Assembly: GCA_016125275.1 (NCBI GenBank)
Contig: WGMB01000009.1
Span: forward strand, 1-64,000
DNA: 64,000 nucleotides
Reading direction: 5' to 3'
DNA from: Acidobacteriota bacterium
GTDB lineage: Bacteria; Acidobacteriota; Terriglobia; Bryobacterales; UBA6623
Below are positions 2,035 through 50,308 of the stretch, piece by piece. Position 1 is the stretch's first letter. Each line of letters begins with the position of its first letter. The translations under genes were made by a program, and so were the position numbers. The notes under the pieces were generated by a model, which searched no databases, was not told where the DNA came from, and was given only the letters and a program-made list of their open reading frames with translations.

Positions 2035-3936
2035 TCATGGCAGCTCCTGATGGCATGCTTCACAGCGCCGAGGGGTTCCCCTGTAGAGGGTCGCTTCCAT
2101 TGCGTCCAACGTTTGCTTTTTGGAATGACACAAGCGGCACGGAACATTCTGGTGTGCACCGTCGAGCGGAAATGCCGAATAGAGTCGATGGTCGAACTGA
2201 GTGGGGTGCCAATCCTTGTTCGTGTGGCACATCGAGCAAGCCTGTCGGGGTTCGCGCAGATCAAACTGCCCGGCATGAACATCCTCGTGGCAGCCGGCGC
2301 ACTGCTGCGGGGCGTCTTTGAAGACGACGCCGTGGACGCTCGGCGAGCCGTCTTGGGAGCGGTGGCAATCGCGGCAAAGCACCGCCCGATGGGCGTCCTC
2401 CAAAGGAAAAGCCGTACGGCTATGGTCGAATTGCCGGGGAGACGCCCATGTCGAGACATCGTGACATAATCCACATTTTTCAGTGGGGCTTTTCGCCCAC
2501 TTATCCGTGAATTGACCTGCGTGAGGATCTTCGTGACAGACCGGGCAATCCAACTCATCCGCCCGAAACGACAGCCTAGCGGGCGAGCCGTCGGATGCGT
2601 CCCTTTGATGGCAGGCGATGCAGGCCACGGCCAAATGCACGCCGGTGAGCTCAAAGCGCGATTGGCGATGTTTGCTCAGCGGGAACGTGGACGGGCGAAA
2701 ACCTTGCACAGTATGACACGTATCACACTGATTCAAATGAGGTTCTCCCGCGAAGTCTCCGTTGTGGGCGTCCTCGTGACAGTCCCTGCAATCGCTTGCA
2801 GAAATCTTGTACACCGTGCCACGCCCTAGGGGCTCATGGCAGGAATCGCAGTCGACGGCGGCGTGCTTGCCGTCCAGCGGGTAGGCGGTCTGCTGATGCA
2901 TCTCGCGTGTGAAGGTTGTCGGCTTGAAGGCGTCGACGGTGTGGCAAATGCCGCACTCCCCGCCGTCGGCGCGGCCAGCGAACTGCTCGCCGTGGGGATT
3001 GTCGCCCTGGTGGCAGTCCAGGCACTGCGTGTGGGGCACGGGGTCCTTGAATCGCGCGCCCGCATGACATTCGGCGCAACTCAGGCCCACGTGCTTGCCC
3101 AACAAAGGAAAGTCCGTACGCCCGTGATCGAAGTTCTGGGAGAGGCTTTTGGGCAGCCAGTTCGAGGTCGAATGGCATCGTTCACACGCAGCCTGGAACG
3201 CCCCGGCGTGAGGGTCCTGGTGACAGTTGCGGCAGGATGTCGACGAGAAGCTGTTCAGCGGAACGAAGCCGTCGATCTCTTTGTGGCAACCCTGGCACTC
3301 CATGGCCGCATGGCGGCCGGTCAGGGGAAAGGCCGTCTGCTGGTGATCGAACTTGGAGATATCGTCGAAGCCCTCGGTGACGTGACAGCGCCGGCAATCC
3401 GAACCGACCTGACCGCGGTGCGGATCGGCATGGCAGATCGCACAGTCCGTCGGCAGCCCCAGAAAGGAGCGGTCCGGGTCCTGCACCTTGGTCTCCCGCA
3501 GCGCATCGAGGTCGACGTAGTCGAGAGAGTGGCACGTCCGGCACTGCACCGCGCCATGCTTGCCGGTGAGCTCGAAGCCGGTTTCCGCGTGGTCGAACGC
3601 CGCCTCGCCCTTGGGCCAGTGCACGAGCTGGAAATCGCGACCCACGTGCTCGCGATGGCAGGCTGCGCAATCGCGCTCCTGCTCCGCCGGCTTGACCACT
3701 CGGCCGTGGTAACCCTGGCCGGCGGCCAGCCGCGAGCCGATCTCCTCGTGGCACTTAGTGCAGACGAAGACCGGCTGCCCCGCCCCGAAGACGTGACAAG
3801 AGTTGCAGCGCAGGGGGCTGTCGAGGTCCCGGTGCGCGTTCGACAGCGGTCCGGGGGAGAGTTGAGCGCGCGCCGACCCCACCGCTCCCACGAGCGCCAA
3901 CCCAACCAGCACGATAGACGGTGAAACGAACTGCAC
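2035..3936 (-). CDS. 23-heme c-type cytochrome with triheme repeats
   Basis: This 633-residue exported protein contains 23 CXXCH motifs, about one heme per 27 residues. The open frame reaches an ATG at 3993, but a GTG at 3936 gives a standard signal peptide (MQFVSPSIVLVG... ending SARA-Q) and mirrors the start of the next cytochrome gene. After three N-terminal hemes the chain runs through about six triheme units. In each, CXXCH is followed by DPHAGQF-like segments, a W/F-rich linker, FDH..T.FPL.G.H, and the next CXXCH. The last two hemes sit at the C-terminus (CRLCH, CEACH). It belongs to the large multiheme cytochrome c / doubled-CXXCH type. The role is presumably long-range electron transfer in the periplasm or to the surface, and the donor and acceptor are not encoded nearby. 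It lies 291 bp upstream of the second cytochrome gene and divergently from the CHAT gene. Confidence 0.9.
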   Translation of the reverse strand: MQFVSPSIVLVGLALVGAVGSARAQLSPGPLSNAHRDLDSPLRCNSCHVFGAGQPVFVCTKCHEEIGSRLAAGQGYHGRVVKPAEQERDCAACHREHVGRDFQLVHWPKGEAAFDHAETGFELTGKHGAVQCRTCHSLDYVDLDALRETKVQDPDRSFLGLPTDCAICHADPHRGQVGSDCRRCHVTEGFDDISKFDHQQTAFPLTGRHAAMECQGCHKEIDGFVPLNSFSSTSCRNCHQDPHAGAFQAACERCHSTSNWLPKSLSQNFDHGRTDFPLLGKHVGLSCAECHAGARFKDPVPHTQCLDCHQGDNPHGEQFAGRADGGECGICHTVDAFKPTTFTREMHQQTAYPLDGKHAAVDCDSCHEPLGRGTVYKISASDCRDCHEDAHNGDFAGEPHLNQCDTCHTVQGFRPSTFPLSKHRQSRFELTGVHLAVACIACHQRDASDGSPARLSFRADELDCPVCHEDPHAGQFTDKWAKSPTEKCGLCHDVSTWASPRQFDHSRTAFPLEDAHRAVLCRDCHRSQDGSPSVHGVVFKDAPQQCAGCHEDVHAGQFDLREPRQACSMCHTNKDWHPTQFDHRLYSAFPLDGAHQNVPCRLCHSKKQTLDAMEATLYRGTPRRCEACHQELP

Positions 3937-4102
3937 TGCAGGCTGACGGCGCTCGAGGTCCGGGCATCGCAGAGCTAGCAATTGGGGCGCCACGTCAGGC
4001 GAGCTGATTCTCGCCCACTATGGTCAAGTCGGCCCACTTGTGCTCGCCCAAGATTCGGAATCGAGCTATTCTGTTCCCGGCTCGTTTCCGAACCATGTCA
4101 AG

Positions 4103-5809
4103 GTGTTGAAGATTTGTCATCTTGCGCGGAGAGTCAGAGGGTCGGGTCCCTGTCGCTCGGCAGCGCTCTTACTCCTTGCGGCCTCGATGATGGCTCCGCG
4201 CGCGACGTACGGGCAAGAACGCGACGCAGTCCAGGTAGAAATTGAACGCCGCCTCATGGAGGTGGAATCCGCGCGGGAGACCGAAGACACGATCGGCCTG
4301 CTCTCCGCCCGGATTGCCCTGGCTCAGGCCTACGGGGCGCTCTCGCTGCTCTCAACGCAGGCCAACGAGCCCGAGCGCGCTCTCGCCGAGGCTCGCCGAT
4401 CTCTGTTCTACGCGCAGCAAGCGCAGGCCCCGGAAGCGCTCTTTCGCTCCCAGTGGAGGATGGCAAAGCTGCAGGCCGCCATCTCCGAAGCAGACCCCCG
4501 CCCGATGTTCCGCTCGGCGGCGGCATCGCTCGGGCTCGCCCGTTCGGCTGCGATCTCCCGCCCCAACAAGGACCCGCTTGCCGAGCCTGAATCGAAGGGA
4601 TTCTATCTGGACTACCTGAACGCTCTCATCGAAGCGGCGCGCGCGAGCTCGGGCGAGGAGGAAGTACGGCGGGCCGAGCTTCGAGCCGTGATCGAATCAT
4701 TTCGGGACTCCGAGCTGACACAGTACTTCGGCGGGATCTGTCGACGAGGGACAAGCTTCGTGTGCTGGCGCGATCTACAGCCCAACGAAGCGTTGGTCTA
4801 CCCCGTGGTCTTCGAAGATCGGATCGAGGCGCTCATCGCAACCGCCGGAGGGCGACTGCAACTCGGGCCCTCTGTCGAGATCCCCCGACCGAAGCTGATC
4901 GAGCGGGTGGACGGCCTGCGCTACTTCTTGGAAAAGAGCACGACCAACCAGTACCGGCCGCTAGCCGCCGAGCTCTACGGACTGCTCATCGCGCCTTGGG
5001 TCGGCCTGCTGCCCGCTTCCGTCGATACTTTGATCTTCGTGCCGGACGACGCGCTGCGCCCCATCCCCATGGCGGCGTTGTTGGCGCCCGACGGCAAGTT
5101 CCTGATCGAGCGGTACGCCGTCGCGATGACGCCGCGCCTGGACGCCACACAAGCGGGCGGCGGCGCAGCCGATCCGCGCGTGCTGGCCATCGGACTGACC
5201 CACCCGGCGGAGTTGCCGCCGTTGCCCTTTGTGGAGCTGGAGCTCGATGCCATCCGCAGCTTCGTCGGCCGCAGGACGATGATTCGCTCCGATGCGAGCG
5301 CGCCGGGGCACCGCCGGTTCCATACGCTGGACGGCGCAACCAAACACCAGCCGTTCTCGGTGCTGCATCTGGCCACGCACGCCGCCTTCGGCGCCGACGC
5401 CCGGACGGAGGTCTTTCTCGATACAGGCGGAAAAGCGCTGACGGTCGACGAATTCGGTCAGGTCCTCGAAGCGGTCTCACAACGCGGAGACCCAATCGAA
5501 TTGCTGGTGCTCAGCGCTTGCGAAACGGCCCGCGGGCCGCTGGACGAACGCTCCGCCCTGGCGGCTCTGGGGCTCGCCGGCGTAGCCGTTCGATCGGGAG
5601 CCAAGAGCGCTCTGGCAACGATGTGGAGCCTCGACGACCGGGCTGCAATGGTCTTCGTTGGGAGCTTCTACCGGGCCTGGCGGTCGGCCGACCGGCCGAG
5701 CAAGGCCCAGGCGGTGCGGCAGGCGCGCCGGGCGCTGATCGAGCACGGCGACGACTACTCCCATCCTTCCTACTGGGCGCCGTTCCTCCTCATCGGCAAC
5801 TGGAGATAG
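4103..5809 (+). CDS. secreted CHAT-domain (caspase-like) protein
   Basis: CHAT domains are caspase/separase-fold peptidases. The expected catalytic dyad is present: His426 in LHLATHAAF and Cys473 in VLSACETA (numbering from the GTG at 4103). The end of the protein, HPSYWAPFLLIGNW, is the usual CHAT terminus. Residues about 40-180 are helical and TPR-like (ALAEARRSLFYAQQA). The frame extends to a GTG at 4040, but starting at 4103 puts a hydrophobic segment (AALLLLAASMM, then ATYGQ) at residues 20-38 as a normal signal peptide, so the protein is probably exported; the start remains uncertain. The stop is 5 bp before the CHASE2-TIR gene, so the two are almost certainly co-transcribed. The dyad suggests an active protease; no substrate can be named. 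CHAT, CHASE2, DUF928 and two-partner secretion genes recur together in cyanobacteria. Confidence 0.88.
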   Translation: MLKICHLARRVRGSGPCRSAALLLLAASMMAPRATYGQERDAVQVEIERRLMEVESARETEDTIGLLSARIALAQAYGALSLLSTQANEPERALAEARRSLFYAQQAQAPEALFRSQWRMAKLQAAISEADPRPMFRSAAASLGLARSAAISRPNKDPLAEPESKGFYLDYLNALIEAARASSGEEEVRRAELRAVIESFRDSELTQYFGGICRRGTSFVCWRDLQPNEALVYPVVFEDRIEALIATAGGRLQLGPSVEIPRPKLIERVDGLRYFLEKSTTNQYRPLAAELYGLLIAPWVGLLPASVDTLIFVPDDALRPIPMAALLAPDGKFLIERYAVAMTPRLDATQAGGGAADPRVLAIGLTHPAELPPLPFVELELDAIRSFVGRRTMIRSDASAPGHRRFHTLDGATKHQPFSVLHLATHAAFGADARTEVFLDTGGKALTVDEFGQVLEAVSQRGDPIELLVLSACETARGPLDERSALAALGLAGVAVRSGAKSALATMWSLDDRAAMVFVGSFYRAWRSADRPSKAQAVRQARRALIEHGDDYSHPSYWAPFLLIGNWR

Positions 5810-5814
5810 AGGAA

Positions 5815-7662
5815 ATGGCGGAAGGGCGCAGCCTCCGAGACTTCGTGTCCAGCCGCTGGACGGAGCTTCAGCGCGGAGTCCTGGGTTACTCGACCTACGA
5901 TCGCCGTCGCTTTTCAAAGTACGCTCGCCGCACGATCGGCAATGTCGCCTTGGTCTCCGCGATCGCCTGGGGGACGGCGGCGGCGCTGCACTACTTTTCG
6001 GTCCTCGAGCCCTTCGAGTTGCTGACCTTCGACACCCTGGTGGAGTGGCGGAACCGGACGGAGCCTCCTCGGGCGTCCGACGTGGCCATCGTCACAGTCG
6101 GCGACGAGGACATGCGGGCGCTCGGCCACGAAACCGACGGGGAGGTCACGGACGACCAACTCGCCTGCGGCCTGCTCACCATTGCCGAACAGTCGCCGAA
6201 CGCGATCGGCGTGGACGTCCTGCGCGGGCCCGAGGTGTCAGAGCTCCTGGGCCGGATCATCACCGCCGAAGCCCTTCCGATCACCGTGGGCCGCCAATGC
6301 ACGCCGCTCGCCAGCGGTTCCATCCCGCCCAGGAAGAGAGGGCCTGTCGGGTTGTCGGACAACCGGCTGGGCTGCGCGGACTTCCCCTTGGATCAGGACG
6401 GTCGCGTGCGTCGGGCCCTACTGGTTTCTCCGGACGAGCAACTCCACAACCAGACCTCTTTCGACCTCATGTTGGCCAAGCGCCATTTGCCCGAGACGCA
6501 GTATGTGGAACCGGTGAGCCGGGACGAGCCTCTGATCCTGGGATCGGCCATCCCGAATCTGCCCGACGCCGGGGGTTTCCAGATCTTCATCGACTACTTG
6601 CCGGTGGCAATTCCCACGATCCCCTTTCGGTGCCTGGCCTCCGGCGCTCCCACGTCCTGCGAGGGCTCGCCGGACCCAAGCTGCCCGGGGCCCGCGGCGC
6701 TCCGGAGAGCTCTGGAGGACAAGGTCGTCCTGATCGGCTATACAGGCTGGGACAAAGAGGATCACTTTCGCGCCATCATCCCACCCGGGCTGGAGGACTG
6801 CCGGTTGACGGCCTTCAACCAGATGCCGGGCGTGTATCTTCATGCGCATGTGGTCGCACAGCTCCTGCGCCTGGGCCAGGGGGGCTCGCGCCCCATCATG
6901 GCGACGGACAGCCTGGGGCGTTGGACCTGGGTCGCGTTGTGGGTTCTGCTGGGTGCCGTTCCGGCGTCGCTCATCTCGAAGCAATCAACCGGGGTCGGCC
7001 TCCAGATTGTGATCCTGCTTTCGCTGATCGGCGCGGTTTGGTACGCCTTCGTGTCGGCGTCCCTGCTGTTGCCGTTCTCGCCGGCGCTGGTCGGATGGCT
7101 GACGGCGGCGGTTCTGGGCCATGCACGCTACGAGCGGCTGCCGGCGCCGGGAGAGCTCAAACTCTTCCTGTCGTACTCCCGGGACGACCGAGAGTTGGCG
7201 TCTCAGATCGAGCAGCACCTGGCGCGCTACTTTCGCGTCTGGAAGGACGAATCGAGCCTGCGCATCGGGACGAAGTGGCAGAAGGAGCTCGTCAAAGCCA
7301 TCAGCGAGTCGGACGTGTTTCTGGCGATTGTGACTCGCTCCTACGTCCGCAAGTGCCAGGAGGACGGCCCCATCCGTTTCGAGCTGCAAACTGCGTCCGC
7401 TGATACCGATGATCGACCGATCATCCCCGTCCGGGCGGAAAGAGTCTCCCTGCCCGCCTCGTTGGAAAAGCTTCAATGGGCGGACTTGACGGAGCCAGAG
7501 GATTCGTCGAAGCGCGCGGGCGCCGCCGACGGCCGGAGCTTCGACTTGGCGGACGTGAGTGCGGAGGAGTTCAAACACGATTCGCCGCGGTTGGCCAGAT
7601 TCCGGCGGGAGCTCTGGGAGATCCAGGAACGGAAAAGGAGACTGGAGGACGTCCAGCCATGA
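5815..7662 (+). CDS. CHASE2 sensor membrane protein with C-terminal TIR domain
   Basis: This 615-residue protein has one membrane helix (about 41-62), an extracytoplasmic CHASE2 domain (about 65-350, with FELLTFDTLVEWR, AIVTVGDEDM and KVVLIGYTG), three closely spaced helices (about 369-387, 392-413, 415-436) and a cytoplasmic TIR domain (about 447-575). The TIR part has LFLSYSRDD, VWKDESSLRIGTKW and a Glu at 523 in the place where TIR NADases carry the catalytic Glu. CHASE2 is usually joined to kinases or cyclases; here the output module is TIR. It may therefore turn an envelope signal into NAD cleavage or into TIR-mediated assembly, which is inference. The ATG at 5815 follows GAGATAGAGGA. 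The frame stays open far upstream, but that part is an out-of-frame shadow of the CHAT gene. The stop overlaps the DUF928 start by 4 bp. Confidence 0.88.
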   Translation: MAEGRSLRDFVSSRWTELQRGVLGYSTYDRRRFSKYARRTIGNVALVSAIAWGTAAALHYFSVLEPFELLTFDTLVEWRNRTEPPRASDVAIVTVGDEDMRALGHETDGEVTDDQLACGLLTIAEQSPNAIGVDVLRGPEVSELLGRIITAEALPITVGRQCTPLASGSIPPRKRGPVGLSDNRLGCADFPLDQDGRVRRALLVSPDEQLHNQTSFDLMLAKRHLPETQYVEPVSRDEPLILGSAIPNLPDAGGFQIFIDYLPVAIPTIPFRCLASGAPTSCEGSPDPSCPGPAALRRALEDKVVLIGYTGWDKEDHFRAIIPPGLEDCRLTAFNQMPGVYLHAHVVAQLLRLGQGGSRPIMATDSLGRWTWVALWVLLGAVPASLISKQSTGVGLQIVILLSLIGAVWYAFVSASLLLPFSPALVGWLTAAVLGHARYERLPAPGELKLFLSYSRDDRELASQIEQHLARYFRVWKDESSLRIGTKWQKELVKAISESDVFLAIVTRSYVRKCQEDGPIRFELQTASADTDDRPIIPVRAERVSLPASLEKLQWADLTEPEDSSKRAGAADGRSFDLADVSAEEFKHDSPRLARFRRELWEIQERKRRLEDVQP

Positions 7663-8441
7663 ACAGGCGGGTCGCGTTCGGGCTGCAGACCGTCGCCGTG
7701 GCGATTGTCCTGGCGCTGTCGGCGGCGGGAGCCGACAAGGACGAGCCGCCGGCCCGGAAACCAGACATGACGGACCTCATGGAGAGGCTCAACGCGATCA
7801 AAGAGCAATACAAACAGAAGGCGTCCCGACCCAAGGAACCGGAGCAGCGTGGGGGCGACGTTTCTCTGCTGGGAAAGGTCCACCGCGAAACCAGGCCGGG
7901 GATCCGGCGCGGCGGACCGGTCGGCCTCTCGCACGTGGCTCTGGCCCCCACGGAAGAAGCGAAGGCCGTCACCGGCGTGAGCCGCCCGACGCTCTACTGG
8001 TACGTCCTCTCTCCGCTTCACCTTCCGGTGAGCTTGACGATTTCCGAACAGGGACGCTCCGAGCCGGTCGTCGACCATGAATTGCCCATTCCATCGAACC
8101 CGGGGTTTCAACAGATCGACTTGGCCCGCTATGGCGTCCGGCTCTCGCCCGGCGTCGAGTATCGCTGGTACGTATCGGTGATGCCGGACAAGAAGTCGCG
8201 CTCCAAGGACATCGTCGCCGGCGCAACGATCCGATTCGTGGACGGCGCCGCGAAGGAGGCTTGGTATGACGAGCTGCATCGGGCCTACCGGCAATACCAA
8301 GCCGATCCCGCCGACGAGGCGGCGAGCCGTGCGCTGGCCCAGCTTCTGATGGAGGCTGGCTGGCCGTTCGCCCAAGCCGAGACGACGTACCGGGCAGAGG
8401 CCGGCGGGGCGGCGGACCGCCCCTCACAGGCGACCCAATGA
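7659..8441 (+). CDS. DUF928 domain secreted protein
   Basis: This 260-residue protein starts with a signal peptide (MNRRVAFGLQTVAVAIVLALS). It has the DUF928 pattern: PTLYWYVLSP, a beta-rich middle, RLSPGVEYRWYVSV, and a helical tail with WYDELHRAY and LAQLLMEAGW. Function is unknown, but DUF928 genes typically sit beside CHAT, CHASE2 and two-partner secretion genes in cyanobacteria, as here. The ATG overlaps the end of the CHASE2-TIR gene (ATGA), implying translational coupling. Its last 18 bp overlap the 3' end of the convergent TpsB gene. A role as periplasmic accessory to the exported CHAT protein or to secretion is inference from context. Confidence 0.82.
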   Translation: MNRRVAFGLQTVAVAIVLALSAAGADKDEPPARKPDMTDLMERLNAIKEQYKQKASRPKEPEQRGGDVSLLGKVHRETRPGIRRGGPVGLSHVALAPTEEAKAVTGVSRPTLYWYVLSPLHLPVSLTISEQGRSEPVVDHELPIPSNPGFQQIDLARYGVRLSPGVEYRWYVSVMPDKKSRSKDIVAGATIRFVDGAAKEAWYDELHRAYRQYQADPADEAASRALAQLLMEAGWPFAQAETTYRAEAGGAADRPSQATQ

Positions 8442-10142
8442 GAGCTGGAAGTGCAGGCCGGCGTCCTGTAGCGAGCCGCTGTTGCCGGTCGTAATCCTGT
8501 GGAACGGCAAGCCCCAGTAGATTTCGACGTCGGGCTGAAGGGGCGATTCGCCGAGACGCGGTCCGGTCCAGCGGACGCCGACGCCCGCGGAGGCGAGCGT
8601 CTTCTCGCCCGAGCGGCTGTTCCCCCGGTTGTTCCACCCATGGCCGAAATCGACGAAGACCGCTCCCTGCAACTGTCCGAACGGACGGGCGCCCCGGAAC
8701 AGCGGAATCCTCGACTCGACCGAAGCGGTCAGGGCGTTGTCGCGGACGAGCTGATTCTGCCGGTAGCCGCGCACGCTGTAGCGGCCTCCGACGGGAAGCT
8801 GCTCGAGCGGCAGCAGCGCGCTGCCCGCAAGTTGGGCGTCTGATTTGAGAATCAACTGCATTTCCCGGACTCGGTCGAATCGTCGGGCCACCAGCGCCTG
8901 GCCGAGCCAAGCGACGAACCGTCCGTCCGGCGGCTTGACTCCGCCGCCGACCACCGCGCCGGGGGGCAGAACGTCTCGATGGATGGTCGGGTTCAACAGA
9001 TTCAGCCCGATGCTGAGGCGGGAGCTGACGTTGGCGACCTGCTTGGCCGTGCGGCGGGTCCAGTCTTGGTGGAGACGCAGGGCCGTGACCACCGATCGAC
9101 CGTTGGTCGCGCCGGCCGAGAACGAAAAAGGCTGGCCGAACAGGTACGACTGGTTGATCGAGTGCTCCAGCGTCGCGCCGAGGCTGGCCCGCTCGTTGAC
9201 GAGTCGCCCTTCGGAGCCGCCGGGCCGGTTTCTGAGTAGAATCGGCGCCGAGAAACCGAGCGAAAAGATTTCGGACTTGCTCGAGATGTCGAGCGACTGG
9301 AACGGCTCCTCGACGACGACGAAGTCGTTCTTGCGGTAGCCCAGCGCCACGGTCGCGTCGCGGGCGGTGACCGGCAGCGAGTAGGACGCCGAGATCTGCG
9401 GATTGAGCCCGGCGGAACGGCCATAGCCGACCCGCAAGGCGTCGCCCCTTCCCGTCAGACTCTCATGCGCGAAGTTTCCGGCGGCGCGCACCGGCCCGAC
9501 GGTTGGCGACTGGTAGTTGTTGAAGGTGATCCCCGCGCTCAGCGGGACCCGTTCTTCCACCGCCACGTCGAGCACGCTCGCGCCTCCGCCATAGGGTCGA
9601 CCCTGCTCGTCGACGGCCCGCAGCTTTGCGTCGAAGCGGCGGACGCGATCGTCCAGATGCAGTTGCTGTAGCCGATCGCGCAGCCTGTAGGAATTGAGAA
9701 GCGTTCCCGCCCCACTCGCAATACGGTCGCGGTAGAAGCTCTTGCGAAACCAGCGGTTGCCCTGGATGTTGATCGTCGGGGCGGCTCCCTCGATGATGCG
9801 CATCGTGATCCTGCCTTCCACGACGGGTTGGTCGTCGATGACCGCGCCGGAGCTCACGTAGCCGCTGTCGACGTACTTCTGGGTCAGCTCGAGGCGGAGC
9901 TGCTCGAGCCGCTCGCCGGTGAACGCCTCCGACTCACGGGTGTATCGGTCTGCGATGTCCTGCAACCCGCCGCAGAAGGCCGGCTCACGCCCACACCCCA
10001 CGACGCGGATCTCGTGGAGGCTGACTTGGTCCAGATGCCGGACCAAGTCGTCCGCGCCGGAGCGTTGCGCCTGCATGGGCTGCGGGCCGCCCACCAAGGG
10101 GAGCAATCCGGCGAGAACCACGCTCCAGGGTCGCGGAAACAT
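8424..10142 (-). CDS. TpsB outer-membrane transporter (ShlB/FhaC/HecB family)
   Basis: This 572-residue Omp85-superfamily translocator of two-partner secretion has a signal peptide (to MQAQ), then POTRA-like segments (LHEIRVVGCG..., GRITMRIIEGAAPTINIQGNRWF) and a 16-strand-type barrel. The diagnostic family motif VRGY is present in GGRYSVRGYRQNQL, near residue 460. Its partner is the TpsA gene just upstream (13 bp spacing, same strand). The natural role is to recognise the TPS domain of the partner and export it through the outer membrane. The 3' end overlaps the DUF928 gene by 18 bp, tail to tail. The barrel is beta-rich to the last residue, so the gene looks complete. Confidence 0.92.
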   Translation of the reverse strand: MFPRPWSVVLAGLLPLVGGPQPMQAQRSGADDLVRHLDQVSLHEIRVVGCGREPAFCGGLQDIADRYTRESEAFTGERLEQLRLELTQKYVDSGYVSSGAVIDDQPVVEGRITMRIIEGAAPTINIQGNRWFRKSFYRDRIASGAGTLLNSYRLRDRLQQLHLDDRVRRFDAKLRAVDEQGRPYGGGASVLDVAVEERVPLSAGITFNNYQSPTVGPVRAAGNFAHESLTGRGDALRVGYGRSAGLNPQISASYSLPVTARDATVALGYRKNDFVVVEEPFQSLDISSKSEIFSLGFSAPILLRNRPGGSEGRLVNERASLGATLEHSINQSYLFGQPFSFSAGATNGRSVVTALRLHQDWTRRTAKQVANVSSRLSIGLNLLNPTIHRDVLPPGAVVGGGVKPPDGRFVAWLGQALVARRFDRVREMQLILKSDAQLAGSALLPLEQLPVGGRYSVRGYRQNQLVRDNALTASVESRIPLFRGARPFGQLQGAVFVDFGHGWNNRGNSRSGEKTLASAGVGVRWTGPRLGESPLQPDVEIYWGLPFHRITTGNSGSLQDAGLHFQLSLGRL

Positions 10143-10155
10143 CTCGCCTCACCGG

Positions 10156-13100
10156 CTATTGCGGACAACTCCCGTTGTTCGACGGCGCAGTCGACCGGCC
10201 TCCGCGTTGGCCCGGCGGCGGAGACGGCAGCCCCACCTGTGTGTAGGAACTGGCAAGCCGCCTCGACGACCCTGGGCCGCAGGGATCGGAGAGCAGGTCC
10301 GTGCTCCTGAGGAAGTAGTCGGATAAGGGATTGATGAATCCGCTCAGCTCGGCGACGGGAGAGCGGATGTCGATGACGCCGGGCGTGCTCAGGCGAGAGC
10401 TGGCGTCCAGAATGGAGCGGGGAGAGACCAGAAACGCCGTACGCGCCTCCAGCGTGATGTCTCCTCCGTCGCCCTCGATCGCTGAAGTCACTACGCTGGT
10501 CCGCTCCAACACGGCAAAGGCGGGGGCGCCGTCGCCAAACATGCTGATGTCGCCGGCGTTGCCGGCTCCGTTGCGAACGTTCGTCGCCACCACACTGTCC
10601 ACCAAGTGCGCCAGCGACCCCACGCGGAAGGTGATCTGCCCGCCGAGGCCACCGTTGGAGCCGGCGATGACCGTCCCCTCGCGGATCAGCAACAGATCGT
10701 CCGCGATCAATGAGATCGACCCAGCCTGGCCGGCATCCGCCTCGACCGACACGCCGCCCCCGTCGAGAACCTGGATGCGACTCGCGTGAACCACGATCGA
10801 GCCGGCGGCGCCGCTGTCCGGCTCTTTCCCCTCGCTCTTGCTCGACAGCCTGGAGCCGTCGGGGCTGGAAAGGGCGAGTCCCTCCGCGCCCGAGATTCGT
10901 ACGGTTCCCGTCGCTGTCAGTTGCACCGACCCCGCCTGGCCCCGGCCCGCGGTCGATGTCGTGATCTGCGCGCCATCAAGCAGCGTGGCGTCGCCCGCCT
11001 CGATCGTGATCGCGCCGCCGTCGCCGCGGCCTACAGTGTCCGCGCGGATCGCACCCGCATCCGAAATCGTCAGCGAGTCCGCCCGCAACACAACGCGACC
11101 GGCCGCTCCGTCGCCCAGGGAGTCGCTATAGACCCCGCTCGCGATCGTCTCTCCGGCGCGGGTCCGGCCGACGCCTTCGATCCGGACGGCGCCGGTCGAG
11201 GAAATGGTTACCGTCCCGCCGGCGCCGCGGCCGAGAGTGGCGCCTTCCACCCGGCTCCCTCCCCGGATCGTCAAGTTGTCGACGAGGATCGTGATCTCGC
11301 CCGAGGCGCCGTCGCTCTGCTCGCTCGAGCCGGTGCGCAACCCTGCCGCCGCACGAACCACGGCGCCGCCGGCAAGCTCCATGTCCGGCGTGGAAATGAC
11401 GATCGACCCCGCCGAACCCGAGCCGTTCGTATCGGACTGAATCCCATCCGGCGCGTCGACGCAGGCCGCCCCTTCGCACAGCGCCCCAAAGTTGCGCGGA
11501 CTCACCAAGCCGCCCTCGACTCTCACCGATTCGCCGGCGTTGATGGTGATGTCTCCCGCATCCCCCGACCCCAGCGTCGAGGTGGCGATGAGGGTCGGCG
11601 GATCGGTCGGCAGCCGGGGACCGTCTTCTGTATCCGCCTTGCCGAGCATCTCCAGGCGGGCTACGTCGATTTCGAGGTTGCCGGCGGAACCCGTGGCCAC
11701 GCCGTCGACGTCCGGCCCGGAGCGCAGGTTGATCGCACTGCCCCCGGCCAGCCGCAGATCCGTCGCCTCGATTCGTACGTCGCCGCCGGGGCGCGATCCC
11801 AGCGTTTGCGCCAGGATCAGAGCGCTCTCTCCGACCAGCTCGATGGAATCGGCCACGCGGATCGTGACGCCGCCCCCAGCCAATCCACCATCGAGCGGGT
11901 AACCATCGTCCGCCGCCAAGGCGCTGTTGGAGACGACCTGGACCGTGGCCCCGTCGGCCACCTTCAGTGAATTCGCGTCGATGGCGATGGAGCCCGCCTT
12001 TGCGGAGCCGCCTCGGACGGTGTCATTGACGATGCCCGTCACGTCGCCGGTCAAGGTGACGGCCGCGCCGGGAGCGTCGATCGTGATGCGGCCCCCGTCC
12101 CCGTCCCCTCTGGCCGTGCCGTAGATTCTGGCCCCTTCCGAGAGGTCGAGGCGGCTGCCGGCTTGGACCGAGATGTCCCCGAGACCGCGACACGTTTCAC
12201 AGGACACCACCCGCACCTGGGCGCCGCCTTTGAGCTCGATCCTGCCCGCCGCAAGATGGATGTCGCCGCCTGCCGCCTCCGCGGCGGAGTCCGACTGGAT
12301 CAATCCGCCGTCCAGCTCAATCGAGTCCCCCGCGGCGAGATCGACCATCCCGCCGCCTCGCGGCCCCTGCGCGTTGGCTGAAACAACCGCCTCACCCTCG
12401 AGGACGAAGCGCCCCGCCCGCACGTAGATCTGTCCGGAGCCGGGCGCCTCGATGCGAGCTGCGTCGACGGTGACGAGCGCCTCCGGGTTGTCGCTCGCCG
12501 CGGCGGGCGGCCCGGAGAAGGCGACCTCGCCGGACCCGGACTGTGCGGTCAGGCGGATGCTTCCGTTGGGGGCGAACAGCCCGGCGCCGGCTCCGCTGAC
12601 CCGGATTGCACGCCCGGCCAGCGCCAGCGACTGGGAGTCACGAACCGCGAGCCGGCTGCCGCTGACCTCGATCGTTCCTCCTTCGCGCTGGTCGAAGAAC
12701 CCAAAGGCCTCGGGCGGCGTCTCCGCGAACGTGCTGGTTCGGCTGGGGTCGGCGAAGAACTGCCCGTTCTCCTTGCCGAACGAGACGGAATCGGCGGCGC
12801 CGGCGTAGAAGGATCCGCCGATGTCCAGCCTGGCGTTCGACTGGAAGAGGATGCCATGGGGGTTGATCAAGAAGAGGTTGACGCCCTCGATGTCCGACCG
12901 GATTGTGCCGTCGATCTGCGACTGCTGCGACCCGGTAATCCGGGCCAGGATGTTCTCAATCCCCTGGGGACCGAGGAAGTTTGCCGTCTGCCCCGTGCTG
13001 AGATTGAACACCGAGAAGCTGTGAAATAGGTTCGGCCCGTGGATCTCCCCCGCTTCCGGCCCGATCGAATAGGTGGCGGAGGCCGCATCGAGGCTCACCG

Positions 13101-13197
13101 TCGGAACGTCGCCGATCGAGCCGTCCGGGATGATCTGAGCGTGGAGTCCGCAGCAGAACGCCGTGAAGAGCAAGCCTCGAACCACTGGGCGCCCCAT
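10156..13197 (-). CDS. TpsA exoprotein with filamentous-haemagglutinin secretion domain
   Basis: This 1013-residue secreted protein has a signal peptide (to LHAQ), then a TPS/haemagglutinin activity domain with GIENILARITG, SQIDGTIRS and NLFLINPHGILFQ. The rest is a long right-handed beta-helix: many short strands with G/A-rich turns and IT/IDA steps (GDISVQAGS, GGRITIDAP, GGAITIEAG). The C-terminus has SDPCGPGSSRRLASSYTQVG followed by a Pro/Gly-rich tail, resembling the C-terminal signature of cyanobacterial haemagglutinin-like TpsA proteins. It should be exported by the TpsB encoded 13 bp downstream and act at the cell surface as an adhesin or scaffold; what it binds is unknown. It is the first gene of the minus-strand pair. 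At 1013 residues it is short for a classical FHA-type adhesin. Confidence 0.92.
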   Translation of the reverse strand: MGRPVVRGLLFTAFCCGLHAQIIPDGSIGDVPTVSLDAASATYSIGPEAGEIHGPNLFHSFSVFNLSTGQTANFLGPQGIENILARITGSQQSQIDGTIRSDIEGVNLFLINPHGILFQSNARLDIGGSFYAGAADSVSFGKENGQFFADPSRTSTFAETPPEAFGFFDQREGGTIEVSGSRLAVRDSQSLALAGRAIRVSGAGAGLFAPNGSIRLTAQSGSGEVAFSGPPAAASDNPEALVTVDAARIEAPGSGQIYVRAGRFVLEGEAVVSANAQGPRGGGMVDLAAGDSIELDGGLIQSDSAAEAAGGDIHLAAGRIELKGGAQVRVVSCETCRGLGDISVQAGSRLDLSEGARIYGTARGDGDGGRITIDAPGAAVTLTGDVTGIVNDTVRGGSAKAGSIAIDANSLKVADGATVQVVSNSALAADDGYPLDGGLAGGGVTIRVADSIELVGESALILAQTLGSRPGGDVRIEATDLRLAGGSAINLRSGPDVDGVATGSAGNLEIDVARLEMLGKADTEDGPRLPTDPPTLIATSTLGSGDAGDITINAGESVRVEGGLVSPRNFGALCEGAACVDAPDGIQSDTNGSGSAGSIVISTPDMELAGGAVVRAAAGLRTGSSEQSDGASGEITILVDNLTIRGGSRVEGATLGRGAGGTVTISSTGAVRIEGVGRTRAGETIASGVYSDSLGDGAAGRVVLRADSLTISDAGAIRADTVGRGDGGAITIEAGDATLLDGAQITTSTAGRGQAGSVQLTATGTVRISGAEGLALSSPDGSRLSSKSEGKEPDSGAAGSIVVHASRIQVLDGGGVSVEADAGQAGSISLIADDLLLIREGTVIAGSNGGLGGQITFRVGSLAHLVDSVVATNVRNGAGNAGDISMFGDGAPAFAVLERTSVVTSAIEGDGGDITLEARTAFLVSPRSILDASSRLSTPGVIDIRSPVAELSGFINPLSDYFLRSTDLLSDPCGPGSSRRLASSYTQVGLPSPPPGQRGGRSTAPSNNGSCPQ

Positions 13198-41525: not shown

Positions 41526-44500
41526 TCAAGGCAACCTGGTCTTGAACAGGATGTCGGAGCCCACCAGCCCGTTCTGGTCGCGTGTGAGCACGAAAGTCCA
41601 GCGTCGATACGGCGCATATTCCAGCCGAAACGTCTGCTGCTGCGCCGACGAAAGGTCGTAAGTATAGATCAGCGTGACCTGGTCCGTGATCTGCTGCTCG
41701 GTGGAGATGCGCGCCGCCGGGTTGGCCTCCGCGCCGCCGGCTTGCGGGTCCACCTTCAGGCGGCTCACCCCGAAGAAGCGTTGCAGCCCCGGCGAGACCG
41801 GTCGCTCCACGGCCTGGTTGAAAACCGTATTCGCGCCGGTCTGAAACAGCGATTGCTGCTGAATGCGCTGGCGCGAAGCCGTCACCGGGTCCGTCGTGGG
41901 AGAACGGCCCACGGCCACCAGGTTCACCAGATCCGCGAACGAGACCGGCGGATCGGAGCGGTAGCTGACGTTGAGCCGCCGAGCCGGCCCGGACAGGATG
42001 AGCCCAATGTCGATGTCGCGGATCCGTGTCTCGAGCTCGAAGTCCAGCACCGGCTCGATCCGGAAGGGATTGACGAAGTCGATCTCGCCTCGGTTGATGC
42101 GGTAGCCGGAGCCGTTGAAGTTGATGCGCCCGCGCGAGACGTTCATGCGCCCCAGCAGGGACGGGCTGTTGAGGCCGCCCACCACGCGCAGGTCGATCTC
42201 GGCCTCGATGTCACGCACCAGCGAGGTCTCGACCATCAGGTCGGCCGCCGAAACCACCTGGATGTTGAGCTGCATGTTGCGCAGCAGCCCGCTGGTGGAC
42301 GGCGTGGTGGTGGGCTCGCGCAGCGAGCCGATCAGAGCGCCCAGCGAGACCTCCGGGTTGGTGGCCGCCCGCAGCACCGTCACCTGGCCCGACAGCAGGC
42401 TCTGCTCACGGTTCCCCGAAAGCGCCAAGCGGCCGTCGATCACCGAGCTGACGCTCGACGGATAGCGGATGCGCACCCGCTCCACGTCGGCTCGCAAACG
42501 GTACTCGGCGTTGTCCCGGTCGAACTGGCTCAACCCCGTCAACACCACACGCCCGCCGCCGGTCAGGCCGCTGAGCTCGCGGATGCGAACCTGCCGGCCT
42601 TCGAACTCCACGTCGCCCTCGACGCCGGTCAGCCCGTTGGCAAAGCCCTCCGAGCGCAGAGAGCCGTCCCGGATGCGCAGATTGCCGCTGACGTCGGGAG
42701 AGCTGCGGTCGCCGGTCACGGAGACCTTGACCGTCGAGCGGCCGGCCGCCTGCAAGTCGCCGTCCAGTGAGCCCAACGCCGCCAAGTTGAACTCCCCTTC
42801 GATCTGGAGATCCAGCGCGCGCGTGCCGTCGAAGGCGATGTCGCCGTCGACTTCGATGTCGGTGCCGTCACCCTGTAGCCGCATGTGTTCGAGCTGCAGG
42901 CGGCGCCCCTCGAAGACCCAGCGCATTGGGAAGGGGTTATAGAGCTGATAGCGAAGGTCCGAGCCCACCAGGGAGCCGACGTTGAAGCTCACCTGTTCGA
43001 AGGCTCCTTCGGCGCGGAAGCTGTCCGGTAGGTTCCGTAGGTCGCCGGTCAGGCTCAGCTTGCCCGCCACTGCGCCGCGCAGGTCATCCAGCGGCAAGTC
43101 GCTGAGCTCGGCCAGCACGCCCGCGTCGAGGTCGCTGATGGTCGCGTCCCCGTGGAAGGCGCCGCTCGGGATCTCGACAACAGCGTCGCCACTGAAGCTG
43201 CCTCCCAGCGGAGTTCCGGTCCAATCCAGCCGCACCGCGTCGCCGCGGCTCGAGAGCCCTCCCTCGAGCGCGCCGAGCTCACGCCCCTGCCACACCAAGT
43301 CGGCCAGGCGCCAGGAACCGCTGGTTTCCAGCCGCTCCACGCCGTTATGATCCGCGGCCAGAACACCGGACGCCCGGACATCGAAGGTCGCCTGGCCGGT
43401 GGGAGGATTCTCCCTGGACCGCAGACGTTCGAGCTGCTCGATGCGCCAGTCGTGGCCGCCCAGGTCGAGCTCGAAACGGCGGCCCGCCAGCTCGTAGCGG
43501 CCTTGCCCCCGCAGCGATCCGGCCGGCGTCTGTAACTCCAACTCCTCAATGGCGGCGACGCCGTCGCGCAGAGCGCCGCGCACGGCCAGCCGCTGGAACG
43601 GCTGGTCGGCCAGCGAACCGTCCGTCACGGCCACATCCACGCTCACCCGCGCGGCTTCGAGCGGCCCGTCCAGCGTCGCCGAGCCGCTCCACAGCCCGGT
43701 CAGCGGCGCGGAGACCTTCGCCGTCTCCAAAGCCTTGGCCACGTCGAGCGCTGTGGCGTCGAGCCGGCCTGCCAACGGCAGCTCGCTCCAGCCCCAACCC
43801 TTCTCCGGCGGGAACGTCCCTTGCAGCGCCAGCTTCGCCTGGCCGCGCTCATCGCGCAGGATCGCGTCGTCGATCTCGAAGCCGGCCGAGTCCAGCTTGA
43901 AGCGCGCTTCCAAGCCCTGCCACGGGTAGCCCAGCAGCTCCAGCTCGCCGGACTCGAGAGCGCCATTCAGCGCCACCGCCAGCGGCTTGCGGCCCAAATT
44001 GATCAGCAGACCGCCCTCGAAGCGCACCGGTCCCAGGGCCCGGAACGGCGCAGTCTCCAGATCCAAGCCGAACAGGTCCAGAATGCTCAGCAGGTCGTCC
44101 GGCGCGGAGGCGTCGAAGAGCAGATCCGTGGCCGTCTCGCCGGCCTCGTCCATGCGTCCGGTGGCCTGCACGCGGGTCACGGCGGTGCGTACGTCCAGAG
44201 CCTCGATGTTGATCTGCTGGGTGGCGCCGTCCAGGTGGGCCCGCAGCGAGCCGTCGAGCGGACGCAGCGAGCCGGCCGCAAGGCCGTCGAGCGTGATATC
44301 CGCGGACGCCTGCAGGTCCTCCGGCGATGAGCCCGTCGCCTCGATATGGGCCCGCACGGCCGAACCCCAAGGGATCGCCTTGGTCGAGCCCGCCGCGGCC
44401 AACAGCGAGCGCAGCCGGAAGCCCTCGGCGTCGCCGGCGATCTCGAACCGCCGGCCGGGCTCGAACGGGTCGGTGAGCTGCGCGCTGCCGTGAAATGCGC

Positions 44501-45539
44501 CGCCGAAGGCCTCCAGCGCCAAATCGCTAAGCTCGATGCGGTCCATCGATCCGCGATAGCCCGTCGACAGCGTCGCCTCCGAAAGCTTCACCGCCCCAGC
44601 CCGAGCGCCCAGCTCAGAGGCCCTCGCCCGGCCTTCGTAGGTCAGCTCATTCCCATCGCCGTTCCACGCCAGCCGCCCGTCCGCCTCCAACCGGCCCGAC
44701 AGCGTCCAGTCCGGCGGCAGCCAGGCGGCGGCCGTCTCCAGCGGCCCGGAGATCTCGTAGTCGAGTGTCGCCGAAGGGGGGTCCGCCAAAGTCGCCTCGC
44801 CGGAGGCCGACAGCGCGGCCTCGCCGAGCTTCAGTCGCGCCTCCGACACCGTCAAGCGCTCTCCGCACAGCGAAGCGCGCGCGTCGGCCGAGTCCACGGC
44901 GCCGGACCGGCCCCGCAGCTCCCACGCTACGCGGCCCGCCGCCAGAGTCGCCTCATGGCAGCCGTCGACCGCGCTGCGGGTGAGGGCGTCCACGTCTTCG
45001 GCCTCCACCGAGGCGTCGAAGATCTTGCCGTTCCACGAGACCCGGGCGTGACGCAGGTCCACCCGCCGCGCGCCGACGGCCAATGAGCGCGCCAGAGCGC
45101 TCTCGATGCGCGGCAGCGTCAGTCCTTGCTCGTCGGTCGCCAGCCGGATCTGCGGCGACTCCACGACGATCGAACGCAAGAACAGCGGTCCGCGCCACAC
45201 GGACTCCCAACCCAAGCCCAGCCGGATCAGCGGCGCTTCGAGGAGCGGCTGGCCGTCGAGACGCGGTTCCGGCGGGCTGCGAAAGTCGTGCAGGTCCACC
45301 CGCAAGGCGGCGCTGTCGAGCTCGATCGAAGCGATCGTCACGCCCTCGCCCAGCACACGCTCGGTCTCGGCAAGCACCTTGGCCCGCAACCACCCCGCGA
45401 ACCAGTCGCTGCGCAGCGCCCAGTCGGCGCCGACGAACAGCAGCGCGCCCGCCGCCAGCAGCCCGGCCAAGGCATAGGCGGCCCAGCGCAGGGCGCGGCC
45501 GCCGGGCAGAGCTTTCCAGCGATCGCCCAGCCGGCTCAC
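41526..45539 (-). CDS. tamB: TamB-family translocation/assembly protein
   Basis: This 1337-residue protein has an N-terminal membrane anchor (AAYALAGLLAAGALLFVGADW) and a very long beta-rich AsmA/TamB body of repeated short strands. The C-terminal DUF490 domain ends with TLIYTYDLSSAQQQTFRLEYAPYRRWTFVLTRDQNGLVGSDILFKTRL. TamB spans the periplasm, works with Omp85 proteins and is implicated in protein insertion and lipid movement to the outer membrane. The start overlaps the SurA-N gene by 4 bp, and that gene overlaps bamA by 4 bp, so the three are one operon. Length is in the normal range for TamB (about 1250-1450). Confidence 0.9.
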   Translation of the reverse strand: MSRLGDRWKALPGGRALRWAAYALAGLLAAGALLFVGADWALRSDWFAGWLRAKVLAETERVLGEGVTIASIELDSAALRVDLHDFRSPPEPRLDGQPLLEAPLIRLGLGWESVWRGPLFLRSIVVESPQIRLATDEQGLTLPRIESALARSLAVGARRVDLRHARVSWNGKIFDASVEAEDVDALTRSAVDGCHEATLAAGRVAWELRGRSGAVDSADARASLCGERLTVSEARLKLGEAALSASGEATLADPPSATLDYEISGPLETAAAWLPPDWTLSGRLEADGRLAWNGDGNELTYEGRARASELGARAGAVKLSEATLSTGYRGSMDRIELSDLALEAFGGAFHGSAQLTDPFEPGRRFEIAGDAEGFRLRSLLAAAGSTKAIPWGSAVRAHIEATGSSPEDLQASADITLDGLAAGSLRPLDGSLRAHLDGATQQINIEALDVRTAVTRVQATGRMDEAGETATDLLFDASAPDDLLSILDLFGLDLETAPFRALGPVRFEGGLLINLGRKPLAVALNGALESGELELLGYPWQGLEARFKLDSAGFEIDDAILRDERGQAKLALQGTFPPEKGWGWSELPLAGRLDATALDVAKALETAKVSAPLTGLWSGSATLDGPLEAARVSVDVAVTDGSLADQPFQRLAVRGALRDGVAAIEELELQTPAGSLRGQGRYELAGRRFELDLGGHDWRIEQLERLRSRENPPTGQATFDVRASGVLAADHNGVERLETSGSWRLADLVWQGRELGALEGGLSSRGDAVRLDWTGTPLGGSFSGDAVVEIPSGAFHGDATISDLDAGVLAELSDLPLDDLRGAVAGKLSLTGDLRNLPDSFRAEGAFEQVSFNVGSLVGSDLRYQLYNPFPMRWVFEGRRLQLEHMRLQGDGTDIEVDGDIAFDGTRALDLQIEGEFNLAALGSLDGDLQAAGRSTVKVSVTGDRSSPDVSGNLRIRDGSLRSEGFANGLTGVEGDVEFEGRQVRIRELSGLTGGGRVVLTGLSQFDRDNAEYRLRADVERVRIRYPSSVSSVIDGRLALSGNREQSLLSGQVTVLRAATNPEVSLGALIGSLREPTTTPSTSGLLRNMQLNIQVVSAADLMVETSLVRDIEAEIDLRVVGGLNSPSLLGRMNVSRGRINFNGSGYRINRGEIDFVNPFRIEPVLDFELETRIRDIDIGLILSGPARRLNVSYRSDPPVSFADLVNLVAVGRSPTTDPVTASRQRIQQQSLFQTGANTVFNQAVERPVSPGLQRFFGVSRLKVDPQAGGAEANPAARISTEQQITDQVTLIYTYDLSSAQQQTFRLEYAPYRRWTFVLTRDQNGLVGSDILFKTRLP

Positions 45540-46192
45540 GGGGAAACCTCCACGGGCTCTGTCTTGGGCTCCGCCAGCGTCGGCAGCCGCACGATTCGCG
45601 TGGTCGCGCGCAACTGCCGCACGCGGTCTTCCAGGTCCGCTTCGGCCTGCCGCTGACGCAAGGCGTCGGTGATCTCCTCGCGCACCTGTTCCAGCGGCGG
45701 CGCGGCCGGGTCGTTGCCGTACAGTCGGCGGTACTCGGCCCGAATCTTGTCGTCGGCGATCTCCACGCCGGCCCGGTAGCGGAAGCTGACGTAGCCTGCA
45801 AAGCGGAGTTGCCGCCGCAAAAAGCCGCGCGCCTGCTCTTCGGTGACGCCGTAGGCCTTCAGAGCCTCCGGGAACGAGCGCCCCGCGAAAGCCGCCTTGT
45901 TGAGTTGCTCGGTCTGGCGCTCCAGCTCGGCGCCGTTCTCGCTGCGGATGCCCGACAGCGCGATCTGGCTCTCGATCAGCCGCTGGTCGATCAGCCGTTG
46001 CAGGGCCTGCTCACGCGCCTCGGGCGTCTCGTCGAGGTTGCGCTCGTTGAACATGGCCTCCAGCCGCAACTGCGTGTCGACCTCGCTGGCCAGGATCGCC
46101 TCCGAGCCCACGATCGCCACGGTCCGGTCCAGGATCTCGGCCCCCGCGGGCCAGACCGCCAACAAACCGACCGCCAGCGTCAGACCTCTCAA
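45536..46192 (-). CDS. SurA N-domain-like periplasmic chaperone without PPIase domain
   Basis: This 218-residue exported protein has a signal peptide (MRGLTLAVGLLAVWPAGA) and a SurA_N / SurA-like fold: ILDRTVAIVGSEAILASEVDTQLRL, RQALQRLIDQRLIESQ, AYGVTEEQARGFLRRQLRFAGYVSFR. The parvulin rotamase domain is missing; the chain ends in helices (EEITDALRQRQAEADLEDRV). It likely hands unfolded outer-membrane proteins to the BamA-like protein encoded immediately upstream (4-bp overlap). It is flanked downstream by tamB, also with a 4-bp overlap. No catalytic role is expected. Confidence 0.85.
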   Translation of the reverse strand: MRGLTLAVGLLAVWPAGAEILDRTVAIVGSEAILASEVDTQLRLEAMFNERNLDETPEAREQALQRLIDQRLIESQIALSGIRSENGAELERQTEQLNKAAFAGRSFPEALKAYGVTEEQARGFLRRQLRFAGYVSFRYRAGVEIADDKIRAEYRRLYGNDPAAPPLEQVREEITDALRQRQAEADLEDRVRQLRATTRIVRLPTLAEPKTEPVEVSP

Positions 46193-49158: not shown

Positions 49159-49176
49159 AAGCTCCAGACGGCCTCC

Positions 49177-49182
49177 ATTATA
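49177..49182 (-). promoter_or_regulatory. -10 box of the bamA operon
   Basis: A perfect TATAAT on the minus strand, 18 nt before the GTG at 49158. Transcription would begin roughly 10-12 nt before the start, giving a short leader that contains GGAG. Confidence 0.55.
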
Positions 49183-49285
49183 AGATGCCCCGGCGGGCCC
49201 CCATAGGATGCCCGTGCGGCGCCGAGCGTTCCGGCGGCATGTGGCTGCTAGCATCGGAGCAGGGCCGCGACGGGCTCTTTTCAGC

Positions 49286-50308
49286 ATGGACGCGCGCGAT
49301 CGGGAACGCTACGCCAGGCAGTCTCAGTTCGCCCCTTTGGGCGAAGAGGGCCAGCGGCGGCTGCGCGCCTCGCACGCGGCGATCGTGGGCTGCGGCGCGC
49401 TCGGCAGCCTGCAAGCCGAGGCATTGGCCCGCGCCGGCGTCGGCCGGCTCACGCTCATTGACCGCGACTTCGTGGAAGAGAGCAACCTGCAGCGGCAGTG
49501 GCTCTATGACGAGGCCGACGCGGCCGAGGCCTTGCCCAAGGCCGTCGCCGCCGCCCGCCGCCTCCGGCTCATCAATTCCGGCGTCGAAGTCGAGGCTCGC
49601 CCGGCCGACGTCAACGCCGACACTGTCGCCGCACTGGTCGCCGGGGCCGACGTGATCCTCGACGGGACCGACAACTTCGAGACGCGCTTCCTGCTCAACG
49701 AGCTCGCCGTGCGCGACGGCCGCCCCTGGATCTACGGCGCGGCCGTGGGCGGCGGCGGCACGGTGATGCCGATCGTGCCCGGCCGCACGGCCTGCCTGGC
49801 CTGCCTGGTCGATCCGGCGCTCAATGACGCCGGCCCCACCTGTGAGACCGCCGGCATCCTCAACGTCGCCTCCGCGGCCGTCGCCGCGTTCCAGACCGCC
49901 GAGGCGCTCAAGATCCTCAGCGGGCGGCTCGAGGCCGTCTCCGCCCGCGCCGTCTCGCTGGACCTGTGGGGCGGCAAGCCGCGGGCCGTCGGCGTGGAAC
50001 GGCATCCCGACTGCCCGGTCTGCGTGCGCCGGGAGTTCCCTCGCTTGGCCGCAGCCGGCGAGCGCCGGCCCGCCGTGCTGTGCGGACGCAACGCCGTGCA
50101 GGTGCAGGAGAGAGACCGCGAGCTCGACCTCGAACGGCTGCGCTCGACGCTGGAGCCGCTGGGCGAAGTCCGTGCGAACGAATACGCCCTGCGGTTCCTG
50201 GCGCCTCCCTACGCCATGACGGTCTTTCGTGACGGACGCGCCATCATCCAGGGCGTCAGCGACGTGGCGCAGGCCCGCAGCCTCTACGCGCGCTACATAG
50301 GGGTCTGA
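49286..50308 (+). CDS. ThiF/MoeB-type E1-like adenylyltransferase
   Basis: This 340-residue protein has a Rossmann nucleotide site (AAIVGCGALGSLQAEALARAGVG), DRDFVEESNLQRQ, an Asp/Arg-rich loop (DGTDNFETRFLLNE), and zinc cysteines CLAC and CPVC. A Cys in PTCETAGIL is the expected thioester/persulfide Cys. It adenylates the C-terminal Gly of a ubiquitin-like protein (ThiS or MoaD in the classic systems). No ThiS, MoaD, ThiG or Mo-cofactor genes are adjacent, so it is an orphan here and the partner is unknown. The C-terminal tail of about 70 residues has an unassigned beta-rich fold resembling the sulfur-carrier-like tail of some E1s. ATG 49286. Confidence 0.85.
   Translation: MDARDRERYARQSQFAPLGEEGQRRLRASHAAIVGCGALGSLQAEALARAGVGRLTLIDRDFVEESNLQRQWLYDEADAAEALPKAVAAARRLRLINSGVEVEARPADVNADTVAALVAGADVILDGTDNFETRFLLNELAVRDGRPWIYGAAVGGGGTVMPIVPGRTACLACLVDPALNDAGPTCETAGILNVASAAVAAFQTAEALKILSGRLEAVSARAVSLDLWGGKPRAVGVERHPDCPVCVRREFPRLAAAGERRPAVLCGRNAVQVQERDRELDLERLRSTLEPLGEVRANEYALRFLAPPYAMTVFRDGRAIIQGVSDVAQARSLYARYIGV

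Follow-up and report, generated by a model that had tools for sequence, protein, structure and literature searches.

Among the bacterial TIR domains investigated to date, many respond to cyclic nucleotides or to cues from inside the cell. For CHASE2, a published protein has one transmembrane (TM) helix before the domain and three after it (PMC3501461), and a report on S. meliloti describes CHASE2 cyclases that respond to an outside plant protein via the outer-membrane barrel NsrA (PMC13001267). With regard to TIR domains, over 70% carry the catalytic glutamate, non-enzymatic members included, and a tryptophan four residues before this glutamate binds the ligand in SARM1 (PMC7075850). No description of a CHASE2-TIR fusion was found in the literature searched, and where CHASE2 and TIR were mentioned together, it was not as a fused protein. 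Here, we analyzed such a protein, encoded in a 64,000-nucleotide stretch of an Acidobacteriota genome (hereafter the window; contig WGMB01000009.1, positions 1 to 64,000).

The gene for this membrane protein of 615 residues lies at 5815-7662 (+), begins with an ATG preceded by AGAGGA and contains no internal stops. The same frame stays open further upstream (open frame 4762-7662); given that the preceding CHAT gene extends to 5809, translation most sensibly begins at the ATG at 5815. A CHASE2 domain, predicted to be periplasmic, was matched by Pfam at residues 56-381 (5980-6957, +; E = 1.2e-35, 123.7 bits against a cut-off of 26.3), and a TIR_2 domain, predicted to be cytoplasmic, at residues 451-562 (7165-7500, +; E = 4.7e-22, 79.2 bits against a cut-off of 28). 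The sequence-only reading had proposed a CHASE2 domain fused to a TIR domain, and both are indeed present in one intact frame with scores far above the cut-offs. It had also proposed one TM helix ahead of CHASE2 and three behind it. In this study, topology and signal peptides were judged from sequence and hydropathy alone. The C-terminal TM segments (residues ~370-435; 6922-7119, +) comprise two strong hydrophobic stretches, 370-388 and 398-435, the latter of which could hold two helices, and TIR_2 begins about a dozen residues past the last segment. The N-terminal segment (residues ~42-62) is weakly hydrophobic, staying under 1.5 in a 19-residue window; the excess of K/R over D/E in the first 43 residues (10 versus 4) suggests that the N-terminus is cytoplasmic. 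The proposed layout, which agrees with that of the published protein (PMC3501461), appears reasonable, its first helix being the least certain. The last of the 50 residues that follow the TIR domain (residues ~591-612; 7585-7650, +) were predicted as a helix in a single-sequence model (pLDDT ~60-80), which might possibly form a coiled coil.

The CHASE2-TIR gene lies between the genes for CHAT and DUF928 in a tightly spaced operon (order CHAT, CHASE2-TIR, DUF928). The CHAT (caspase-like) gene (4040-5809, +; Pfam CHAT, E = 4.9e-50), which encodes 589 residues as an open frame with an uncertain start codon, ends 5 bases before the CHASE2-TIR start; its product keeps the H447/C494 catalytic dyad within the motifs HLATHA and LSACET and has an N-terminus resembling a signal peptide. 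Downstream, the ATG of the gene for the 260-residue DUF928 protein (7659-8441, +; Pfam DUF928, E = 8.6e-16) overlaps the CHASE2-TIR stop codon (ATGA), and a hydrophobic, signal-peptide-like segment could be recognized at the N-terminus of this protein on the basis of sequence and hydropathy. Converging on the operon is a two-partner-secretion pair with 13 bases between its genes: TpsB, an outer-membrane transporter of the ShlB/FhaC type (8424-10142, -; Pfam ShlB, E = 8.4e-24, and POTRA_2), and TpsA, a secreted protein with a TPS/filamentous-haemagglutinin N-terminus (10156-13197, -; Pfam TPS, E = 1e-33; NCBIfam adhes_NPXG). Elsewhere in the window, a multihaem cytochrome c7/c3-type protein is encoded divergently from the operon (2035-3993, -), and a TamB gene adjoins an Omp85/POTRA gene as an outer-membrane assembly pair (41526-49287, -).

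GTDB contigs were scanned with a CHASE2 alignment, and the neighbouring genes at 80 of the loci listed, which were mostly cyanobacterial, were mapped with profiles built in this analysis. A Pyrinomonadaceae locus (L042) showed an identical layout, with CHAT, CHASE2-X and DUF928 on the forward strand and TpsB and TpsA on the reverse strand, X being a cyclase. All five gene types were also present at a Nitrospirae locus (L047) and a gammaproteobacterial locus (L033), and in all three cases the CHASE2 protein ends in a class III (guanylate/adenylate) cyclase. The four genes adjoining CHASE2 in the window are related to those of the other cassettes: the best matches of the window's CHAT protein were in L044, L042, L033 and L047 (34-36% identity) and those of its DUF928 protein in L042, L033 and L047 (31-36%), and the best matches of TpsB and TpsA were found in L042 (41%) and L047 (28%), respectively. 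Hence, the proposal that TIR here stands in place of the usual kinase or cyclase is supported, since the best relatives of all four partner proteins lie in cassettes that bear a cyclase on the same CHASE2 gene. The strongest evidence comes from the operon and the cassette, neither of which had been described in the sequence-only reading. Among the 70 loci with enough downstream sequence, DUF928 was immediately 3' of CHASE2 in 29 and present anywhere on the locus in 46. Another cassette of the window's phylum, with DUF928 and CHAT near a CHASE2-cyclase gene, was observed at L218 in a genome of the window's class (G121). It should be noted that the CHASE2-cyclase contigs of L042 and L044 are near-identical, although they belong to MAGs classified as Pyrinomonadaceae and Candidatus Binatia, respectively; one of these assignments is probably a binning error. 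A CHASE2 cassette linked to CHAT, DUF928 and TPS genes was not described in the literature searched, where DUF928 was hardly mentioned, and it seems to be undescribed as such.

Comparison of 145 CHASE2 proteins revealed that the outputs are exchanged: 58 carried a cyclase, 27 CHAT, 11 a histidine kinase, 4 TIR and 3 GGDEF, and the remaining 42, in which AAA_35 was also found, carried other or no recognized outputs. In cyanobacteria, the output was a cyclase, GGDEF, kinase, CHAT, AAA or an N-terminal TIR. Relatives of the cassette proteins had, besides cyclases, CHAT, TIR, histidine kinase, GGDEF and AAA_35 as outputs. In the CHASE2 tree, the window protein groups with the CHASE2 proteins of the cassettes (SH-aLRT 99) and is separate from the CHASE2-kinase of its own genome and from the usual CHASE2-cyclases of the phylum; its long branch (2.24) leaves its precise position uncertain. 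These sequence comparisons support the view that CHASE2-TIR represents an output swap inside a conserved envelope cassette. The combination of a fixed outer part with at least six kinds of output offers a comparative handle on the functions of CHASE2, DUF928 and the secreted CHAT protein.

TIR, CHAT and AAA_35 come from protein groups that prokaryotes frequently employ in defence or death, and all three recur as outputs on the CHASE2 proteins of the cassette. It might be argued that the locus is an anti-phage or cell-death cassette in which envelope stress or contact acts through CHASE2 and the TIR depletes NAD, thereby halting growth or killing the cell. Similarities to PADLOC models were detected for the TIR; however, the best of them were weak and confined to this domain, the NCBIfam model of Thoeris ThcB4 scored 27.5 against a cut-off of 220, and no defence genes were found among the neighbours examined. 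As the closest cassettes carry cyclases, signalling is favoured over killing, and we consider a role in defence unlikely.

A search for similar fusions across bacteria had been suggested by the sequence-only reading. Within the family, 17 further genomes gave no match, and no full-length relative was found among 297 genomes of the phylum. Used as a single query, the full-length protein (P0001) recovered no relatives from either viral contigs or genome contigs, and the TIR alone recovered none from plasmids or phages; a scan of viral contigs for TIR relatives with which to deepen the alignment yielded one useful locus (L223). TIR-CHASE2 proteins with the reversed order do exist elsewhere and are already contained in databases through automatic annotation. 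One of them, from the window's phylum (L163:8199-9992, -; genome G172), has an N-terminal TIR and no recognized cassette genes on its contig. The C-terminal order was not found in the phylum genomes sampled or at the 80 GTDB-contig loci, and the frequencies of C-terminal fusions are lower bounds, the contig scan having used CHASE2 patterns and covered 80 of the loci listed. The lack of a C-terminal relative among the sampled genomes would fit a functionless one-off fusion that arose here through recombination, or a join introduced by the assembly. Nevertheless, the single intact frame, the tight operon spacing with the ATGA overlap at the very end of the TIR part, the scores of both domains far over their cut-offs and the placement of the downstream DUF928 gene as in the cyclase cassettes all argue against such an accident, which we regard as very improbable. 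The window's genome is rich in TIR domains: TIR_2 was matched 14 times, and some of these matches form neighbouring pairs on one contig (C14).

The sequence-only reading had further placed Glu523 (codon 7381-7383, +) at the position of the catalytic Glu of TIR NADases. Residue 523 is a Glu, and its register depended on the TIRs chosen for comparison. Against the acidobacteria-type TIRs (GxFQxELRYALD), BLAST, MAFFT and profiles of 10-18 TIRs put Pro519 at the catalytic-Glu column and paired Glu523 with an Ala. On the other hand, MAFFT with L163 and the cyanobacterial TIRs of TIR-CHASE2 proteins put Glu523 on an invariant Glu, and a diverse profile of 75 TIRs, with Glu at this column in 71 of them, placed it on the catalytic Glu with a posterior of ~0.9. 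The latter register needs a four-residue insertion (512-515) ahead of Glu523; the window TIR scores 90.5 bits with this profile versus 72-78 with the narrower ones. When the loop was shuffled, the motif E-[LIVM]-x-x-A appeared in only 0.8% of cases, and a slightly broader form of it was present in all 44 comparator TIRs. On the basis of the 75-TIR profile and the motif test, the Pro519 register was set aside as the main reading; the proposal is partly supported, and Glu523 is the probable, though not proven, equivalent of the catalytic Glu.

Structure prediction, by which the TIR fold was also to be checked, was confident for the N-terminal half of the domain. A single-sequence AlphaFold model of the TIR was unusable (pLDDT 42). 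With a six-row alignment, the mean pLDDT of the TIR was 57; the N-terminal half was mostly at 70-85, and the model was confident to about the third strand, whereas the second half, including the helix of Glu523, was of low confidence. This alignment imposed the Pro519 register, and the test was thus biased against Glu523. Foldseek neighbours of the partial model were mostly TIR structures (best E = 0.005, none below 0.001). Even if correctly aligned, Glu523 would not prove NADase activity, as the same Glu is common in non-enzymatic TIRs. The position four residues ahead of it is Pro519 rather than the usual Trp, which weakens the enzymatic reading, since that Trp binds ligand in SARM1. The TIR could instead be a non-enzymatic module that assembles in a signal-dependent manner and recruits another TIR protein, as the TIRs of Toll-like receptors do. 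Such a role would agree with Pro519 at the ligand-binding position, with the profiles that leave the catalytic column without a Glu, with the frequency of this Glu in non-enzymatic TIRs (PMC7075850) and with the number of TIR_2 matches in the genome as potential partners. Yet the 75-TIR profile keeps Glu523 at the catalytic column and most of the other outputs recognized within this clade of CHASE2 proteins are enzymatic, and we consider the assembly role possible but rather doubtful.

Taken together, the reading to which we lean, with moderate confidence, is an envelope signalling cassette with an interchangeable cytoplasmic output, in which TIR takes the place of a cyclase and its activation would lead to NAD+ cleavage. 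In this scheme, TpsA would be exported through TpsB in the outer membrane, and the CHAT and DUF928 proteins are predicted to reside in the periplasm. CHASE2 might read the periplasmic state by sensing either a ligand or partner that binds to it or a product of cleavage by CHAT, and the membrane helices would relay the change to paired output domains in the cytoplasm. That TpsA/TpsB at the outer membrane and CHAT/DUF928 in the periplasm may feed CHASE2 is suggested by analogy with NsrA of S. meliloti. Cyclase, GGDEF, kinase, TIR and caspase-like domains are mostly enzymes that act as dimers or assemblies. As this applies to most of the exchangeable outputs, we infer that one membrane mechanism could drive all of them. 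For the window protein, activation would bring the TIRs together, and putative NAD+ cleavage would yield an NAD-derived messenger or NAD loss. TIR signalling or NAD chemistry may in this way be the response to an outside signal. More tentatively, the protein might be a one-piece transmembrane TIR receptor, in which a relay of TpsA-TpsB, CHAT, DUF928 and CHASE2 makes the TIR produce an NAD-derived messenger that replaces cAMP or cGMP; if so, one nucleotide-messenger enzyme has been exchanged for another on the same sensor. With a TIR bound to an envelope sensor whose relatives drive cyclases, one could examine directly if TIR chemistry can be gated from outside the cell and if TIRs can replace cyclases as messenger makers.

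With respect to described TIR proteins, the window TIR shares with SARM1, AbTir and BtTir the TIR fold in its N-terminal half, a probable equivalence of the Glu and, with SARM1, a similar KCxxD loop; it differs in having Pro at the Trp position, and its sequence matches in the PDB were no better than E = 0.003. Toll-like receptors also combine an outside sensor, a membrane span and a cytoplasmic TIR. This likeness is an analogy only, as their sensor domain is unrelated, whereas CHASE2-TIR has several TM helices and bacterial envelope partners. Membership in Thoeris was rejected (NCBIfam ThcB4, 27.5 bits against a cut-off of 220). The search for ThsA (STALD, PF18185) was uninformative, as neither the window's genome nor the control genomes gave a match. 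The CHASE2 proteins CyaD1, CyaD2 and CyaK of S. meliloti resemble the window system in sensing through an outer-membrane barrel; they have a cyclase output and use NsrA rather than a TpsB, and CHAT and DUF928 are not mentioned in the available part of the report (PMC13001267).

The other three TIR cases among the 145 CHASE2 proteins are all cyanobacterial: Kovacikia WP_224346713.1 and the Symploca protein (L065), with three TIRs each, and the Lyngbya protein (L100), with one. Like the window protein, they unite TIR and CHASE2 in one polypeptide, and in Kovacikia and Lyngbya DUF928 is likewise a neighbour. However, their TIRs are N-terminal, ahead of the first TM helix, whereas that of the window is C-terminal; the CHASE2 tree requires at least three TIR changes, which implies that TIR was recruited separately. 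On Kovacikia plasmid pB, three tandem TIRs precede CHASE2 (L025:6150-9299, +), and the TIR part of this protein shares 42% identity with a protein from a Bernardetia plasmid, which suggests exchange between phyla. The protein of the same phylum (L163) shares TIR and CHASE2 with the window and differs in its N-terminal TIR, its divergent CHASE2 and the lack of recognized cassette genes. The closest likeness is to the CHASE2-class III cyclase cassettes (L042, L047 and L033), which have the same type of CHASE2, the same predicted TM layout and the same CHAT, DUF928, TpsB and TpsA partners, in the same gene order in L042; their cyclase lies behind a longer linker, whereas the TIR of the window starts ~12 residues past the last TM helix.
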